64,000 nucleotides of DNA from Tepidibacillus decaturensis (GTDB lineage: Bacteria; Bacillota; Bacilli; Tepidibacillales; Tepidibacillaceae): contig NZ_LSKU01000001.1 of NCBI RefSeq assembly GCF_001561915.1, positions 814,628 through 878,627 of the forward strand, in the 5' to 3' direction. Shown one piece after another: positions 2,678 through 34,175 of the stretch; position 1 is the stretch's first letter, and each line of letters starts with the position of its first letter. The notes under the pieces are model-generated. The model did no database searches. It worked only from the letters and a program-made list of their open reading frames with translations, and was not told where the DNA came from. A program made the position numbers and the translations under genes.

Positions 2678-5223
2678 GTGAAACAATCAATGGAAAATGA
2701 TAAGAAAACACGCTTAGAAGGATTAAGCGAAAAAATCTTCCTGGATCGCTATGCATTAAAGGACGTCACTGATCAACAAGTAAATGTAGGGGATACTGTA
2801 TTAGTTTTAACAAAAGATGATCCAAAGTTCCCACAAAAAGAAGTAGGTGAAGTCCTTTCGATTGATGGTTTGACGATTACGGTTGGTTTAAGAAGTGGAC
2901 AAGTTATAGAAACCGAACAAAGCAAAATTACAAAACCATTGGAGTTAACACCTGAAAAAATGTGGGACCGTTTAGCAAAAGCGATTGCTTCTGTTGAAAA
3001 ACCTAAAAAACAACAAGAATGGACAGAAAAGTTTCGCCATGTATTAGATGATTGGAAATTAGTTCCCGGTGGCAGGATCGCTGCAGGGGCTGGAGCGAGT
3101 GATGAATTAACTTTATTCAACTGTTATGTTATTCCTTCACCCAAGGATAGTCGTGGTGGAATTATGGAAACGCTAAGCCAGATGACAGAAATTATGTCAC
3201 GAGGTGGTGGAGTTGGTATTAACCTATCTTCTTTAAGACCACGTCGAGCAGTTGTAAAAGGGGTGAATGGTTCATCCAGTGGAGCTGTTTCCTGGGGTGG
3301 ATTGTTTAGCTATACTACTGGTTTAATTGAACAAGGTGGCTCGCGTCGTGGAGCTTTAATGCTCATGTTAAATGATTGGCATCCTGATCTATTAGAATTT
3401 ATTACCGTAAAACAAGAAATGGATCTAATCACAAATGCTAACCTTTCTGTAGCTGTAAGTAACGATTTTATGAAGGCAGTAAAAGAAGATTTAGATTGGG
3501 AATTAGTTTTCCCTGATACAAGTGATCCTGAATATGATGAAGTTTGGGATGGTAATCTCCAAAAATGGAAAGAACTCGGTAAATCCGTGAAAGTATATAA
3601 AACATTAAAGGCTAGAGAAATCTGGCATACCATTATTGAGTCTGCTTGGCGATCGGCAGAACCTGGTATTGTTTTTATGGAGTACTATAATCAAATGTCT
3701 AATAGTTGGTATTTTAATCCAATCATTAGTACGAATCCTTGTGCGGAACAAGGTTTACCAGCTTGGGGTGTATGTAATCTATCTTCGATCAATTTAGCCA
3801 AATTTGTAAAAGATGGAGAAGTGGATTGGGATGCTCTCGGAGAAACTGTTGAAATCTCTGTCCGTTTCTTAGATAACGTAATTGATGCTACACCTTACCA
3901 TTTTGAAGAAAATAAAAAAATCAGTTAAATGAACGTCGTGTTGGATTAGGTAGTATGGGCTTAGCTGAAATGCTCATCAAATTAAAGATTCGTTATGGTA
4001 GTGAAGAATCCTTAGCATTCTTAGATAAACTATACAACTTTATTGCAAAACGAGCCTATCTAGCTTCAGCGGAAATTGCGGCGGAAAAGGGATCATTCCC
4101 AATGTTTGATAAAGAAAAATTCCTACAAAGTCTTTTTGTCCAACAATTTGATGACGAAGTTAAAGATGCGATCCTAGAAAAAGGGATGAGAAACGTTACT
4201 GTTCTTACTCAAGCACCTACAGGTAGTACAGGTACCATGGTTGGAACATCTACTGGGATTGAACCCTTCTTTGCTTTTGAATATGTTCGTCAAAGTCGAT
4301 TAGGTTTGGACAAGCAATATGTACCGATTGCAAAAGAATGGTTAGACCAGCATCCTGGTGAAGATCTTCCTGACTATTTTGTAAGTGCAATGGAACTTTC
4401 TGCTGAAGACCATATCCGTGTACAAGCTGTTATTCAAAAATGGGTAGATTCTTCCATTAGTAAAACCGCAAATGCACCAGCAGATTTTACGGTGGAGGAT
4501 ACTAAGAAACTTTATGAATATGCCTTTGAATTAGGTTGTAAAGGAGTAACCATCTATCGTGATGGAAGCCGTGATGTGCAAGTACTTTCAACTGAGAAAA
4601 AGGAAGAAAAAGATGCAGTAAAACCAGAAGTTGAACAACAATTAGATCATAAACCTGAAAAAGAATATCGTCGTAGACCAAAAAAATTAACAGGTGCAAC
4701 CTATAAAATGAATACGCCGTTAGGTAAAGCCTATATCACCATCAATGATGTGGAAGGTAAACCTTTTGAAGTGATTGTTAATGTAGGAAAAGCAGGTAGT
4801 GATGTCTTCGCCATGTCTGAAGCTTTGGGAAGAGTGTCAACACTATTTTTACGCTTCGGGGAAATTCCAGATGGTAATAAGGCACGTTTATTGATCAAAC
4901 ATCTAAAAGGCATTGGTGGTTCAGGGGCAGTTGGATTTGGACCAAATCGAGTTGAATCAATTGCTGATGCAGTAGCAAAAGCGTTAGAGATGCATATTGA
5001 TGGAGAAGAATCCGACGATTCTATAGCTGCTTCATCAGAGCAACAAGTCTTAAATAGACATCTTGATCATGAAGGAATTGGTTCGTTTGATCATGACCAT
5101 GATTTTACTGATGATGCAGTGCCTGATGGATTAGATTTATGCCCAACTTGTGGATCAGCTTCTTTAGTCAACGAAGAAGGCTGTAAGCATTGTATTACTT
5201 GTGGATATACCCGTTGTTCATAA
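2678..5223 (+). CDS. nrdJ: adenosylcobalamin-dependent (class II) ribonucleotide reductase, frameshifted in this sequence
   Basis: This enzyme reduces ribonucleotides to deoxyribonucleotides using a B12-derived thiyl radical, so it needs neither oxygen nor an NrdF partner. Visible blocks are LFNCYVIPS, GGGVGINLSSLRPR, NPCAEQGLPAWGVCNLSSINL and the PTGSTGTMVGTSTGIEP loop. The C-terminus has a TSCPD-like domain and a Cys-rich tail (CPTCGS...CKHCITCGYTRCS). The frame breaks at an A7 run (3914-3920). One extra A gives ENKKNQLNERRVGLGSMG and joins 2678-3928 to the part ending at 5223, for about 848 aa. The start is the GTG at 2678 behind AGGAAAG; the ATG at 2690 is possible. A real pseudogene is unlikely because both halves are well conserved. 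Confidence 0.92.
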
Positions 5224-5415: not shown

Positions 5416-6522
5416 ATGATCAATCAACTAACTTCAAAGGAAAAAGAAATTATTGAAATTCTGCGTAAAAATCCCTTTATAGAGCAAGAGGAAATTGCAA
5501 ATCAACTTGGACTAGCAAGATCTTCTGTTGCAGGCCATCTTGCGAGGTTGAGCAAAAAAGGAATCTTGCAAAGGGGATATATTCTTAATGAGAGAATGAA
5601 TGAAATTGCTGTAATTGGTGGGGCAAATGTGGATATTAAAGGAATTGCTGATGGGTCATTCAGACAAGGAAGTAGTAATCCGGGAAAAGTCTATCGTACA
5701 GCAGGTGGTGTTGCAAGGAATGTAGCAGAGAATCTTGCAAAGCTTCAGTTGTCTACATTTCTTTTTACCGTTGTTGGACGTGATGAAGAAGGGGATTGGC
5801 TATTGGATGTAACACAAAAAGCGGGTGTCAACATTCAATATATTGAACGATTAGCTAATGAGAGAACAGGGAAATACCTATCCATTCTGGATGAAAATAG
5901 GGAACAAGTTGGTTCCATCTCAGATATGCAAATTATGGAGAGAATGGACGAACTGTTTCTACAAAACCTTTATCCAAAATTGATTACAGCAAAGATCGTA
6001 TTTCTAGATACGAATCTTCCTCAGTCTACATTAGTACCTCTTATTCATTGGCTCAAAGACAAGGAAACGATGATCGTTATCGACCCAGTATCTGCTAAGA
6101 AAGCCGAAAAATTAAAAGGATATTTAGAGGACTTAGATTTAATTACTCCAAATAAGGAAGAAGCAGAAATCCTAACTGGCATTACAATAAAAAGTAAAAC
6201 GGATCTTAACCGAGTAGTATACGAGTTTTTTTCTCAAGGAGTAAAGCAAGTCGTAATTACTTTAGGTGCTGAAGGGGTATTTGTGGCCACACCTGAAATT
6301 CAGGAATTCCTTCCTAGTCCTAAGGTTGATGTGAAAGATACGACAGGAGCTGGCGATGCTTTTGTTTCCGGGATTATCTATGGTTTAGTAAATGATAAAG
6401 AGCTTATCGAGGCATGTAAATATGGCCATACTATGGCAGCAATCACTCTTAAACGGGAAGAAACCGTTGTCCATGATCTAAACATACACATTTTAGAACA
6501 GTTAAAAAAGGAGATTTTCTAG
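5416..6522 (+). CDS. psuK: pseudouridine kinase with N-terminal helix-turn-helix
   Basis: This is a PfkB-family sugar kinase that should phosphorylate pseudouridine to pseudouridine 5'-phosphate. The function is inferred from the adjacent psuG. Residues 1-60 form a winged-helix DNA-binding domain (SKEKEIIEILRKNPF, then EEIANQLGLARSSVAGHLARL). The kinase domain follows, with VIGGANVDIKG at its start and the anion-hole/catalytic-base motif DTTGAGDAFVSG near the end. The HTH may let the kinase regulate its own operon. A GTG three bases upstream is an alternative start; GGTGAT serves as the ribosome binding site. It overlaps psuG by one base (TAGTG), indicating translational coupling. Confidence 0.87.
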   Translation: MINQLTSKEKEIIEILRKNPFIEQEEIANQLGLARSSVAGHLARLSKKGILQRGYILNERMNEIAVIGGANVDIKGIADGSFRQGSSNPGKVYRTAGGVARNVAENLAKLQLSTFLFTVVGRDEEGDWLLDVTQKAGVNIQYIERLANERTGKYLSILDENREQVGSISDMQIMERMDELFLQNLYPKLITAKIVFLDTNLPQSTLVPLIHWLKDKETMIVIDPVSAKKAEKLKGYLEDLDLITPNKEEAEILTGITIKSKTDLNRVVYEFFSQGVKQVVITLGAEGVFVATPEIQEFLPSPKVDVKDTTGAGDAFVSGIIYGLVNDKELIEACKYGHTMAAITLKREETVVHDLNIHILEQLKKEIF

Positions 6523-7463
6523 TGGAGACTAAAATTGATTTTTTAAAGAAACAAATACACATCAAAGAGGAAGTGAAGGATGCATTAGCTTCGGGAAGAC
6601 CAGTTGTGGCATTAGAATCAACTATTATTACGCATGGAATGCCTTATCCAGCTAATGTAGAGACAGCCTTAGAAGTAGAACGGATAATTCGAGAGCAAGG
6701 TGTAATTCCAGCAACGATCGCAATTATCAATGGAGTGATCAAAGTTGGGTTAACGGAAGAAGAAATTAAGGATTTAGCAAAAGAAAAATATGTAGTGAAA
6801 GCGAGTAGGCGTGATTTACCAGTCATCCTTGCTAAAAAATTATCTGGAGCGACTACAGTAGCAGGTACGATGTTGGTGGCTAGGATGGCAGGAATTAAAG
6901 TTTTTGTCACAGGAGGGATTGGTGGAGTTCATCGTGGTGCAACTGAGACGATGGATATCTCTGCAGATCTGCAAGAACTAGCCAAAACCAATGTAGCAGT
7001 TGTTTGTGCAGGGGCAAAATCGATTCTTGATATTGGCTTAACTTTAGAATATTTAGAGACCCAAGGGGTTCCTGTTTTAGGATATCAAACAAAGCAATTC
7101 CCTGCATTTTATACCCGTGATAGTGGGTTTAATGTAGATTATCAGGTGGAAAGTGCGGAGGAAATGGCAAATATCATGAACATAAAATGGAATATGGGTT
7201 TAGATGGCGGTATTGTGATCGCTAATCCCATCCCTGCCGAACATGCACTAGATGAAAACTATATTAACCAAAAAATAAGGGATGCTTTAAAGGAAAGTGT
7301 AGAAAATAAGATTATTGGTAAAGAAATTACACCATTCCTATTATCAAAATTAGAAGAAATCACAGAGGGTAAAAGCTTAGCAGCTAATATTGAATTGGTA
7401 AAACATAATGCAAAAGTAGGAGCACTTATCGCTACTGAGTACGCAAAATTAAATAAAGCTTGA
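6522..7463 (+). CDS. psuG: pseudouridine-5'-phosphate glycosidase
   Basis: This enzyme cleaves pseudouridine 5'-phosphate to uracil and ribose 5-phosphate, completing C-nucleoside catabolism begun by PsuK. The 313-aa length and the blocks ALESTIITHGMPYP, KASRRDLP and FVTGGIGGVHRGA are typical of the family. A GTG start at 6522 overlaps the psuK stop, with an AGGAG ribosome binding site inside the end of psuK. The two genes form a closed operon. The next promoter begins only a few bases after the stop. Confidence 0.93.
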   Translation: METKIDFLKKQIHIKEEVKDALASGRPVVALESTIITHGMPYPANVETALEVERIIREQGVIPATIAIINGVIKVGLTEEEIKDLAKEKYVVKASRRDLPVILAKKLSGATTVAGTMLVARMAGIKVFVTGGIGGVHRGATETMDISADLQELAKTNVAVVCAGAKSILDIGLTLEYLETQGVPVLGYQTKQFPAFYTRDSGFNVDYQVESAEEMANIMNIKWNMGLDGGIVIANPIPAEHALDENYINQKIRDALKESVENKIIGKEITPFLLSKLEEITEGKSLAANIELVKHNAKVGALIATEYAKLNKA

Positions 7464-7466
7464 AAT

Positions 7467-7494
7467 TTGACTTTTGTTTTTAGTTTGTTAAAAT
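7467..7494 (+). promoter_or_regulatory. sigma-A promoter for the zwf leader RNA
   Basis: TTGACT at 7467-7472 and TAAAAT at 7489-7494 have a 16-bp spacer. Transcription would start near 7501, immediately before a structured segment and about 217 bases before zwf. Confidence 0.65.
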
Positions 7495-7500
7495 GTTAGT

Positions 7501-7595
7501 TGGATGAGAACCAAGGATTGTAGCTGCTTAGCAGTAAGACCTAAAACGATGCAAGGGGGCAATATGGTTTCCTTTTTCGTTTTGGGTCTTTTGCA
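7501..7595 (+). ncRNA. unidentified structured leader RNA or small RNA upstream of zwf
   Basis: The region contains three pairings. A CTGC-TTA-GCAG hairpin lies at about 7524-7534. A 13-bp stem pairs 7536-7548 with 7578-7590 (AAGACCTAAAACG / CGTTTTGGGTCTT, one G-U) and ends in a short T stretch. A further helix pairs 7508-7513 and 7517-7520 with 7560-7563 and 7565-7570 (GAACCA..ATTG with CAAT.TGGTTT). This third helix pairs into the loop of the long stem, so it forms a pseudoknot or competes with it. No known riboswitch class was recognised. The position before zwf suggests a cis-regulator or attenuator, and a separate small RNA is equally possible. The gap 7596-7717 shows nothing else. Confidence 0.5.
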
Positions 7596-7717
7596 CTTAT
7601 TATATGGAAAAAATGGCTAGTTTGGTATATAAAATAGGATGTGTTTAAAAAATAAGTAAGAAGTTTTCTTTTTATTGGTAAATAAAGGTGCTTATTATTA
7701 ATTTGGAGGGTATACCG

Positions 7718-9213
7718 TTGAATAATAATAATGAAAATCTGTCAAATATTTTTGTCATATTCGGTGGTACTGGGGACCTAACCTATCGGAAATTAATCCC
7801 AGCTTTATATCATTTGCAATACGGAAAGATGTTACCAGAACATTTTGCAGTCGTTACGATCGGAAGACGTGGTAAAACGACCGAGGAATATAGGAACGAA
7901 CTATATGAAGCAATAAAAAAATTTTCTCGTTTCCAACTAGATGAATCTGAGTGGAATACATTACGTGAACGGATTTACTATCAACAGATGGATTTTACCG
8001 ATGACCAAGGATATCCCCTATTAAAAAGTTGGTTAGAAGAACTTGACCAAATACATCAAACCATGGGGAATCGGATTTATTATTTAGCTGTTGCCCCTGA
8101 ATATTTTGGCCTGATTGTTGAAAAATTACATGATCATGGCATGGCTAACAATGAAGATTCATGGCAGAGAGTGATGATTGAAAAACCATTTGGAAGAGAT
8201 TTGCAATCAGCAAAATATTTAAACCAAAAAATAACGTCTGTATTTAAAGAAGAACATACCTATCGGATTGATCATTATCTTGGCAAAGAAATGCTTCAAA
8301 ATATCATGGTTATTCGTTTTGCTAATGCTTTATTTGAACCGATTTGGAATAATAAATACATTGACCATATCCAAATCTCTTCAAGTGAAATAGTTGGAGT
8401 GGAAAATAGAGGCGGCTATTATGAAAAAGCAGGTGCATTAAGGGATATGGTTCAAAACCATATGCTGCAGCTCCTTACATTAACAGCAATGGAACCACCC
8501 ATAAGTCTTGAAACTGAAACAATCAGAGATGAGAAAGTGAAAGTTCTTCGTTCTATTCAGGAATTTACACCTGATTTGGTCGCAAAGAATGTAGTTCGGG
8601 GACAATATGGTGAGGGAATTGTTCAACAAAAAAAGTGGTTCGTTATCGCGAGGAAGAAAGAGTTTCACCAATCTCTGAAACAGAGACATTTGTTGCATTA
8701 AAAGTAAATATCAATAATTTCAGGTGGGCAGGAGTTCCGTTTTATATTAGAACAGGAAAGAGAATGCCGGTCAAGTCGACAGAAGTGGTTGTTCAATTTA
8801 AACCGTTAGACCATATTTTATATTTTAAAGAATATGGTAATCTATTGCCTAATCTATTGGTTATTCGTATTCAACCCGAAGAAGGAGTTTTTCTACAATT
8901 TAATGCAAAGCAACCGGGTACAAAGAATATGATTATCCCCGTTAAAATGGATTTTTGCCAAAATTGCCAGATTGGTAGTAACTCTCCTGAAGCATACGAA
9001 AGATTGCTCTATGATGTGATGAGAGGAGATTCAACTCTTTTTACAAGGTGGGATGAAGTAGAATATTCTTGGAAACTTGTTGATATGATTGCTGAAGCAT
9101 GGACAACGCAAAAGATAGAATTACCTAATTATGAAGCAGGTAGTTGGGGTCCAAAGGAAGCAGATGAACTTTTACATAGAGACCAACGAAAATGGTGGAA
9201 TATAGGAGTGTAA
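7718..9213 (+). CDS. zwf: glucose-6-phosphate dehydrogenase, frameshifted in this sequence
   Basis: This enzyme oxidises glucose 6-phosphate to 6-phosphogluconolactone and makes NADPH (oxidative pentose phosphate pathway). The N-terminal dinucleotide motif is IFGGTGDLTYRKL. The active-site block is YRIDHYLGKEMLQN, and GVPFYIRTGKRM lies in the C-terminal half. The frame breaks at an A7 run (8628-8634). With one more A the sequence reads VQQKKVVRYREEERVSP and gives about 498 aa, the usual length. The best start is the TTG at 7718, 7 nt after GGAGGG; an upstream in-frame GTG at 7688 lacks a good site. The cyclase gene follows 6 bp downstream. Confidence 0.92.
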
Positions 9214-9219
9214 TGTTAA

Positions 9220-9861
9220 ATGGAGATATATGATATTTCAATGATGATTCATCAAGAGATGCCAGTATATAAAAACAAAGAAGAGAAAAGACCGGTTCTC
9301 AAAACGATGCAGGATTTTGCTACTGGTCATGTTTTTGAGTCTCGAATACAAATGGATATGCATACAGGAACTCATGTTGATGCACCTCTTCATATGATTG
9401 AAAATGGAAATACGATAGATACCCTTGATTTAAGAAAAGTTGTCACTCCTTGCAAGGTGATTGATCTGACTGCAATAAAAGAGAAGATAACAAAAGAAGA
9501 TCTTCAATCAATAAATCTCCAAAAGAATGACTTTGTTTTATTCAAAACAAAAAATTCCTACGATGATCAGTTTAACCAAGAGTTTGTTTATTTGGATCGG
9601 AGTGGTGCACAGTATTTAACTACAAAAGGAATTAAAGGTGTCGGAATCGACGCACTTGGCATAGAACGAAGCCAGCCTGGCCATGAAACGCATATAAGCT
9701 TAATGGAAGCAGGTATTGTTATTCTGGAAGGACTAAGGCTTAAAGATATTGACGAAGGTGAATATTTTCTATATGCTGCTCCCCTATTTATTAAAGGAGC
9801 AGAAGCAGCCCCAACAAGAGCAATTTTAGTTAAGATGAATTATGAGAATGTAAAGGTTTAA
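9220..9861 (+). CDS. cyclase/arylformamidase-family metal-dependent hydrolase
   Basis: This is a 213-aa member of the cyclase family (Pfam Cyclase), which includes kynurenine formamidase KynB and isatin hydrolase. The metal-binding signature HTGTHVDAPLHM is present at about residues 47-58, and a second conserved His/Glu region follows near GHETHISLMEAGI. The substrate cannot be assigned. No kynureninase or tryptophan dioxygenase gene is nearby, so the kynurenine pathway is not supported. It begins 6 bp after zwf and is probably cotranscribed with it. Confidence 0.82.
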   Translation: MEIYDISMMIHQEMPVYKNKEEKRPVLKTMQDFATGHVFESRIQMDMHTGTHVDAPLHMIENGNTIDTLDLRKVVTPCKVIDLTAIKEKITKEDLQSINLQKNDFVLFKTKNSYDDQFNQEFVYLDRSGAQYLTTKGIKGVGIDALGIERSQPGHETHISLMEAGIVILEGLRLKDIDEGEYFLYAAPLFIKGAEAAPTRAILVKMNYENVKV

Positions 9862-9870
9862 TCCCATTTA

Positions 9871-9900
9871 AAAAAAGGATACAATGGTATCCTTTTTTTT
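9871..9900 (+). terminator. bidirectional terminator between convergent genes
   Basis: AAAAAAGGATAC pairs with GTATCCTTTTTT around a 4-nt loop. There is an A-run on the left and T8 on the right, so it can terminate both the zwf-cyclase transcript and the niaR transcript. Confidence 0.85.
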
Positions 9901-9905
9901 AATAT

Positions 9906-10466
9906 TCATGGGTTTACTTCACTTTCATTTTCTTTTTCAAGTAAGAATCCCGCTTTTTTAAAAGCTAGGCAAACCTCATCTAGTTGTTCAATTGTGTCTG
10001 CCTCAAGGGTGTGAAGATGGGTACCTTCTGTTAAGTCTGAAAGATAGGAAGCTTTGGAGTCTTCCATTTTTTGAATGAATTGTTTTACATCTCTCCTATT
10101 TTTTATGACAAGGGAGGCAGTCATTTCTCCATATATTGGATGTTCTATGATCACATCTCTGATAAATACACCATGATCAACAATTAGATTAAGCTCTGCC
10201 TCAGTCTGAGCAGGGGTATGATTACAAGCTATGATTCTCTTAAAGGAATGAGCTGATTCCTTTTCACGCAAATATACATAACCTTGAGCAGTTGCAATAA
10301 TAGGTTCATTTTTTGCTTTTAATAAGGAAATATCTTGGACAATGACTTGTCTACTAACATTTAGTTTCTCAGCTAGTATTTGCCCCGTCAATGGTTCTTC
10401 ACTTTCTTTTAGCCATTGTAAAAGAATTCTTCTTCTTTCTTCACCAGAACGCTTTCTTTCATCCAC
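9906..10466 (-). CDS. niaR: niacin-responsive transcriptional repressor, HTH plus 3H domain
   Basis: This protein resembles NiaR (YrxA), which represses NAD biosynthesis or niacin uptake genes when nicotinic acid is bound. It has an N-terminal HTH_11-type domain (RRRILLQWLKESEEPLTGQ, then LAEKLNVSRQVIVQDISLLK). A 3H domain follows, with conserved histidines in CNHTPAQ, EHPIYGEM and GTHLHTLEA, expected to bind metal and ligand. The GTG at 10466 is preferred over an upstream ATG at 10496 because GAGGTGAT lies just before it. It is a single gene whose target operons were not seen in this window. Confidence 0.87.
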   Translation of the reverse strand: MDERKRSGEERRRILLQWLKESEEPLTGQILAEKLNVSRQVIVQDISLLKAKNEPIIATAQGYVYLREKESAHSFKRIIACNHTPAQTEAELNLIVDHGVFIRDVIIEHPIYGEMTASLVIKNRRDVKQFIQKMEDSKASYLSDLTEGTHLHTLEADTIEQLDEVCLAFKKAGFLLEKENESEVNP

Positions 10467-10586
10467 CTTAATCACCTCTAGAAAAAGCACTTTCACTCAA
10501 CTCTATTATAACGTAAAAATAGACATTTCCCTAGCACTTTGCTTATTTTTCAATCATAGGATGTCATTGGAAAGGAAGTGATTGAA

Positions 10587-12330: not shown

Positions 12331-12369
12331 GTTTTCTGATCATATGTAAGTAGAAAAGGGGGGATGGAG

Positions 12370-13292
12370 ATGTTAGTTGATGCGGTGATTGAAGGTGGAG
12401 GTATAAAAGCAATCGGACTGGTTGGTGCAATCTTTGAGGCTGAGAAAAGAGGATACCAGTGGAATCGTTTGGCTGGAACTTCCGCTGGATCAATGATTGC
12501 TGCAATGCTAGCAGCTGGTTATACGGCTTCTGAATTAAAGGATGAACTGATGAATTTAGACTATAAAAAATTTATTCAAAAAAAGGAATCGAAATCCCCT
12601 TTCTTGGAGCAGCATTTAACCTGATATTTAAACTTGGTATTCATTCTGGTGATTATATTGAACAATGGTTAAGTGAAAAATTACGAGTAAAAGGGGTAAG
12701 AGCATTTGGTGATTTAGAGAAGACATTATATATTATCGCCTCAGATATTACGAGTGGGGAAATGTTAGTTCTCCCTCAAGACTTAACTCGTTATGGTGTA
12801 GACCCTTTAACCTTTGATATTGCAAGAGCAGTAAGGATGAGCTCAAGTTTGCCATTTTACTTTCAACCTGTAAAATTTAAAGGTTTATATAACAAAAAAC
12901 TGGATCATTATATTGTTGATGGTGGACTTTTAAGCAACTTTCCAGTTTGGATTTTTGATGATGATGGATCCTCAAAGTGGCCCACTTTTGGTTTTCGACT
13001 TGTTTCAGAAAAAACAGGGCAACCCAATAAGATAAATGGACCAATATCTTTAGGATATTCACTGATTAGTACAATGGTAGAAGCTCACGACACCCGCCAT
13101 ATTAAAGAAAAAGATTATGTTCGATCAATCTTAGTCCCAACACTTGGGGTCAATACCACAGATTTTGATCTAAATAAAGAAAAAAGGGATGAATTATTTG
13201 AGTCAGGAGTGAAAGCTGCGAAGAACTTTTTTGACCAATGGAACTATATTAGATATACATTCCAATATCGTCAATCAAAAAAGACACCCTAA
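12370..13292 (+). CDS. yqhO: patatin-like phospholipase (YqhO type), frameshifted in this sequence
   Basis: This is a patatin-family Ser-Asp acyl hydrolase. The oxyanion glycines are EGGGIKAIG at the N-terminus. The nucleophile serine is in GTSAGSM, and the catalytic Asp is in the VDGGLLSNFPVW block. The frame breaks at an A7 run (12578-12584). One extra A reads FIQKKGIEIPFLGAAFNLIF and rejoins the downstream frame, giving about 307 aa. The ATG at 12370 is chosen because the upstream ATG at 12364 abuts the G-rich ribosome binding site. Its position before yqhP and yqhQ matches B. subtilis yqhO. The physiological substrate is unknown. Confidence 0.87.
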
Positions 13293-33526: not shown

Positions 33527-33532
33527 TATTGC

Positions 33533-34142
33533 TGTTTATTGGAGTGGTGCAGTATTTCTAGTCAATCTACCTATCTTGAAGACGGGCCTAAAAATCCGTC
33601 AAAGGGCACATCGATGAAGTTCTTGGTGTTGGCTTCTGACGCCCAGTCGGGGGTCGATGCTGGGAGTTAAGGTTGAAGGGCGATCCACAATGGCATGTGG
33701 GCGTAGACCCTTCTTCCGCGGAGGCCCAAGTTCGTAGTAAGGAGGTTCCTACCAAATTATTATGGCTTGGGGTATGAACCTGCAATGCGAGGTTTCACTT
33801 GTATGCAGCGTAGCCTGCCTTGAGTGATATAGTGTGGGATTATAGGCTAACAATAAATCATCTTCGGCCAAGATGATTTATTCGTTCTATATGAAATCTA
33901 TATTGCAAAAGAGGCTAGGGATAGGTTAAAGGTTGTTGAGGAAAACTCCTAGACTGCTCATAATGAGGCTCTTTGAGGATTGTAGTGTGGACTAAGTGGT
34001 AATCTAGTCCAATGTTTGGTGACAACATTGAGGAGAGCGTAAAGGGAAACCGCCTTTTTGGCGACGAAAAGGTGTCTCTCTTGGGAAAACCTACTGGACC
34101 TAAGCCACAGTGTTTACTCAAAGAGTTACCACTCCAATATTG
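33533..34142 (+). ncRNA. ole: OLE RNA (ornate, large, extremophilic RNA)
   Basis: This is a structured noncoding RNA of about 610 nt that forms a membrane-associated ribonucleoprotein with OapA (and, elsewhere in the genome, OapB and OapC). It is linked to stress tolerance and metal homeostasis in some extremophilic Bacillota. The ends form a perfect 12-bp helix: 33537-33548 (TATTGGAGTGGT) with 34128-34139 (ACCACTCCAATA). Internal hairpins include AATAAATCATCTT / AAGATGATTTATT around 33850-33880. Size, position between ispA and dxs, and the oapA gene 34 bp downstream all match the known class. It has its own promoter. Open frames on the minus strand here are chance. Confidence 0.93.
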
Positions 34143-34175
34143 GCTTAAAAGATTAATATTAGGAGATTTACATAA

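Follow-up and report, generated by a model that had tools for sequence, protein, structure and literature searches.

The window analysed here, a stretch of 64,000 nucleotides from Tepidibacillus decaturensis, carries on its forward strand the gene psuG (pseudouridine-5'-phosphate glycosidase, 6522-7463; recognised from its sequence, with no NCBIfam match), followed by a leader region and by zwf (glucose-6-phosphate dehydrogenase according to NCBIfam, 7718-9213), which begins with a TTG start codon at 7718 and the Shine-Dalgarno sequence GGAGGG. Next come an arylformamidase-like gene, a 3H-domain regulator and then an Hsp20-like gene. In the relative G001, psuG adjoins the Hsp20-like gene directly, and the block of zwf, arylformamidase-like and regulator genes (7718-10496), together with the leader, thus looks as if it had been inserted behind psuG. 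A second relative, G002, has zwf directly after gnd and without a leader, and the arylformamidase-like gene is found there as well. Among the named genomes searched, the zwf of the window is nearest to that of Clostridia (Thermoanaerobacterium, 74% identity), which suggests that the gene was acquired by transfer.

Beginning 3 bp past the psuG stop codon lies a sigma-A type promoter (7467-7494, forward strand) with a -35 element TTGACT (7467-7472), a 16-bp spacer and a -10 element TAAAAT (7489-7494) preceded by TG. It was found just as the initial annotation had claimed and matches the consensus at 10 of 12 positions. Promoter-like sites at the leader are no commoner than in shuffled sequences; the promoter is plausible, not statistically special. 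Judging from its -10 element, transcription would start near 7501.

Between about 7501 and 7600, the RNA folds better than its shuffles (z = -3.45), and both the long terminator-like stem and the small hairpin reported before are present. The former belongs to an intrinsic terminator (7536-7592, forward strand), whose arms of 14 nt each (7536-7549 and 7577-7590) are 93% complementary with one G-U pair and whose stem ends in CTTTT (7588-7592), the U-tract. The minimum-energy fold also contains an inner 8-bp stem (7553-7560 with 7567-7574), which had been overlooked; it lies stacked on the terminator and competes with the split helix proposed earlier. The small hairpin (GCTGC-TTA-GCAGT, 7523-7535, forward strand) is seen in the predicted fold and in the alignment to a covariance model, R1, that was made from the window sequence alone. 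It forms the upper part of a putative ribonucleic antiterminator (RAT), GGATTGTAGCTGCTTAGCAGTAAGACC, at 7515-7541 of the same strand, delimited by R1 homology, by alignment with eight other RATs and a wider alignment, and by core comparison.

When R1 was run over 399 Bacilli genomes, matches were obtained with per-genome E values down to 2.4e-6. The best of them, besides the window, have AGGATTGTnACTGC..GCAGGCAAGACCTAAA in common, with a stem behind it that ends in TTTAGGTCTTTTTT, and in these relatives the motif overlaps a terminator. This motif is the RAT, the target of the BglG/SacY/LicT antiterminators. The motif of the window family also agrees with the published RAT consensus GGATTGTTACTG-N6/7-CAGGCGAGACC (PMC12628678). 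One further candidate, L110 (29.9 bits with R1), was dropped as a RAT because its core differs. Compared with the consensus GGATTGTnACTG-N-CAGGC(A/G)A(A/G)ACC, the window RAT agrees at both ends and in the upper stem, and it has diverged at two places: A9 is replaced by G, and the GC of the second internal loop is reduced to T. It can still be folded as a hairpin with two internal loops, at -7.4 kcal/mol, slightly weaker than two relatives, which reach -8.4 and -8.9 kcal/mol. Nucleotides 7536-7541 belong both to the 3' part of the RAT and to the 5' arm of the terminator, an overlap expected of leaders of this family, so that the two folds are mutually exclusive. Judged by these features, the leader is almost certainly a RAT-terminator of the BglG/SacY/LicT antitermination family, that is, a slightly worn copy of a known kind of RNA switch at an unusual gene. 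What had been presumed to be a new riboswitch is thereby replaced by a precise, testable identity.

A match to an already named RNA family had been put forward as evidence against novelty, and in substance such a match is at hand. The window element itself did not match RF03530 ('cis-regulatory element of the bglG/LicT operon') in Rfam up to E = 10, where only chance families appeared, while the relatives found through it, as well as the bgl leaders of the same genome, do match RF03530 below threshold. The cut-off of this family (bglG-cis-reg) is 80 bits, and undoubted RATs score only 21 to 28.5 bits; the model is thus narrow and passes over ordinary RATs. The leaders L131, L103, L105 and L106 are such ordinary RATs, more than 50 bits short of the cut-off.

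Homologues upstream of zwf, by which the leader was to be checked, were not found: about 68 zwf loci of other genomes are without a convincing RAT, and the zwf of G002 is leaderless. A DNA search in four family relatives gave short chance matches only, two of them inside an ileS-like coding sequence, and the regions after psuG in three relatives contain no similar RNA. A 26-nt match (92%) of leader positions 7543-7568 to a Fonticella zwf coding sequence (L018:5863-5888) was set aside as probably due to chance, since it lies in sense orientation inside a coding sequence, and the likeness to the zwf of the window itself extends to only half of the match (GGACAATATGGT).

The initial annotation had seen in the leader the layout of a ligand-sensing attenuator, unmatched to known riboswitches, T-boxes or 6S RNA, on account of a 10-bp split helix GAACCA..ATTG with CAAT.TGGTTT (7508-7513 and 7517-7520 with 7560-7563 and 7565-7570, forward strand) by which the 5' end would pair with the terminator loop, as a pseudoknot or in exclusion of the long stem. 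This helix can indeed be drawn, at -8.7 kcal/mol. However, an equally good pairing is reached by about 24% of shuffles made from these segments, and nearly all relatives pair at chance level, one outlier (L171) excepted; a conserved, covarying long-range helix, as expected of a riboswitch with a pseudoknot, is thus lacking. In addition, RAT homology explains the conserved parts, the small hairpin and its flanks being the RAT site of BglG/SacY/LicT antiterminator proteins. We consider a novel small-molecule riboswitch at this locus very improbable, and direct sensing of a pentose phosphate or of a redox signal is without support. The attenuator reading holds insofar as a promoter, a premature terminator and an alternative hairpin overlapping its 5' arm are in place, but the fold that competes with the terminator is that of the RAT hairpin and not the split helix. 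A peptide-coding role is more improbable still: a frame of 38 codons is open at 7504-7620, and an SD-like AAGGGGG precedes the ATG at 7564 of an internal hydrophobic peptide of 18 amino acids, so that a leader peptide or small toxin could be imagined. The frame crosses both RAT and terminator, though, no relative better than E = 0.035 was found in 300 Bacilli genomes, and the relatives of the leader keep the RNA, not the frame; the 38-aa ORF was therefore rejected as a functional feature.

Covariation had been proposed as a check of all three helices, and it bears out one of them. In an alignment of 34 distinct relatives, two-sided changes occur at 7 of the 13 pairs that make up the terminator stem. 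In both helices of the leader taken together 98.2% of the cells are paired, and double-changed cells number 57 versus 14 expected in shuffles, with far lower values in slid controls; the counts come from an alignment fitted to the model, in which a few rows are partial and one of these is an antisense hairpin. They are therefore biased in favour of structure, which with an effect of this size is unlikely to matter. The RAT stem, to which the small hairpin belongs, is nearly invariant across the relatives and thus uninformative in this respect, and the split helix received no such backing.

The position of the leader before zwf is exceptional. Among 92 RATs collected from Bacilli, 83 precede genes for PTS components, antiterminators, 6-phospho-beta-glucosidases or levansucrases: the downstream gene is BglP-like in 44 cases, SacP-like in 13, PtsG-like in three and LicT-like in eight, and it encodes a GH1 enzyme in seven and SacB in eight; eight others are of different kinds and a single one, that of the window, is zwf. 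Such targets are usual rather than defining, as the exception of hylA demonstrates. The search pattern is fitted by 86 RATs, and 85 of these keep A9 and the second-loop GC, the window RAT being the sole exception in both; by eye, the six RATs outside the pattern keep them too. Since the set was gathered with a second model (R2) that favours conserved cores and has the window among its training sequences, and with the pattern in addition, the invariance at positions 9, 22 and 23 is somewhat overstated. Among pattern-fitting RATs, the 21 sacP/sacB leaders all have G at position 26 and the 13 licT/GH1 leaders all have A. The window RAT has G (AAGACC) and would accordingly be assigned to the sucrose (SacT/SacY) class, a call that rests on this one base, G26. 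Its U-tract is the poorest of 32 compared, with the fewest T in the tail.

The proteins that could act on such an element are few in this genome. A domain search recovered two antiterminators with a CAT_RBD domain, LicT and GlcT; a SacT/SacY-like protein was not found among the CAT_RBD proteins of the genome, nor was a clear sucrose PTS, the best candidate being no better than trehalose. The bglA-licT-bglP cluster contains two textbook RATs, before licT and before bglP, and a glcT-ptsG operon is also present, in which the RAT before ptsG belongs to the distinct GlcT type (GTGTAACTGATTCGATCAGGCATGAGT). Of the family relatives, G002 encodes GlcT only, and neither a CAT_RBD domain nor a strong RAT match was detected in G001, G003 and G004. 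Before bglA of the T. decaturensis cluster we noted a third, divergent RAT-terminator, GGAATGTTACCGATAGGGCATAACC (L131:2533-2632).

In this protein family, the cognate enzyme II phosphorylates PRD1 when the sugar is absent, and dimerisation of the antiterminator is prevented; in the presence of the sugar the antiterminator dimerises and binds both bulges of the RAT, and the terminator is prevented (reviewed in PMC7430163; PMC9981650). For Streptococcus mutans bglP, a truncated transcript was mapped in the absence of inducer (PMC1489936). The zwf leader works, or once worked, presumably in the same manner as the sacB, sacP and bgl leaders, controlled by a protein and not by a small-molecule ligand. 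RNA polymerase would start near 7501, and the nascent RNA would fold either as the RAT hairpin (7515-7541) or as the terminator (7536-7592). An active antiterminator dimer, dephosphorylated at PRD1, would clamp the RAT and let transcription proceed into the next gene; without it, transcription would stop near 7592. We infer from G26 that the leader descends from one of the sucrose type (SacT/SacY) and was captured, with its own promoter on one side today and zwf on the other; the start site and the loss of switching are likewise inferred. At present it would be an orphan, acting as a fixed, leaky attenuator or as a nearly constitutive zwf promoter with weak switching or none. A sac-type RAT, the lack of SacT/SacY, an altered protein-contact loop and the poorest U-tract together make it most likely that the switch is uncoupled, although the terminator stem is still fully paired, with one G-U pair, unlike in DNA that has long decayed. 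Provided that the element is a RAT, an orphan state is probable, switching by LicT doubtful, and switching by GlcT or another protein unlikely. We therefore regard it as fairly probable, taking all parts of the statement together, that a captured and partly decayed sac-type RAT-terminator leader stands orphaned before zwf.

A RAT of altered specificity, by which a PTS-controlled antiterminator (LicT, or GlcT) still switches zwf and hence entry into the oxidative pentose phosphate pathway, is in our view somewhat unlikely. It would mean that a BglG-family switch has central metabolism, and not the uptake of sugars, under its control. With LicT, for which our estimate is equally reserved, uptake of beta-glucosides via BglP would leave LicT dephosphorylated and able to bind the zwf RAT in addition to its own, zwf would be transcribed, and PTS sugar supply would be coupled to pentose phosphate pathway entry. 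The RAT still folds as a two-internal-loop hairpin, which would permit LicT binding, the terminator stem is intact, and the licT-bglP-bglA cluster of the genome is complete, its three RAT-like leaders including one that is also divergent; moreover, with NagY and hylA in Enterococcus, a transferred gene has been put under such a regulator by gain of a RAT (PMC9981650). The changes at A9 and G22/C23, on the other hand, and G26 in place of the A26 of LicT leaders do not fit LicT, specificity determinants block cross-talk between SacT, SacY and LicT (reviewed in PMC7430163), and G002, the only family relative examined that has zwf, has no RAT there. Control by GlcT, activated by glucose uptake through PtsG, would be physiologically sensible and the glcT-ptsG operon is at hand, but the ptsG RAT of this genome is distinct whereas the window RAT has ends of the LicT/Sac type, and we consider this course quite improbable. 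Should the switch work, zwf of this lineage would be under the direct control of PTS sugar signalling; if the leader is an orphan, it is an example of a sugar-operon leader captured as promoter for a central metabolic gene.

Several known leaders resemble that of zwf. The sacB and sacP leaders of the SacY/SacT regulon in Bacilli share with it the AAGACCTAAA end and a long overlapping terminator, from which the zwf leader departs in its target gene, in A9G, in the reduction of GC to T, in its shorter U-tract and in the lack of a SacT/SacY protein found in the genome. The bgl leaders bound by LicT (RF03530), including the two that flank licT in the same genome, have the same architecture and belong to the same family; however, they have AAAACC and an unchanged core, neither of which is seen in the zwf leader, and the latter has no RF03530 match even at E = 10. 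The nagY/hylA leaders of Enterococcus (PMC9981650) also place a RAT before a transferred non-PTS gene, but they have a cognate antiterminator, NagY, that binds them, while no cognate protein was identified for the zwf leader. With the ptsG leader the zwf leader shares the protein family and the principle, not the RAT sequence. In the literature searched, no paper joins 'ribonucleic antiterminator' with zwf.

The reading frame of zwf is broken at a run of seven A (8628-8634, CAACAAAAAAAGTGG), more likely by an assembly indel than by -1 frameshifting, for which the site, A-AAA-AAG with AGGGA upstream, would also be suited. A gene for an adenosylcobalamin-type ribonucleotide reductase is likewise split into two frames at an A7 run (3914-3955), as is a patatin-like gene near homopolymers (12364-13292), and homopolymer indels in the assembly are thus likely. 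Given these frameshifts nearby, faulty assembly could also account for the G missing from CAGG in the RAT core and for the shortness of the T-run. Farther downstream, at 33528-34148, the window contains a full-length OLE RNA (RF01071, 537.9 bits).
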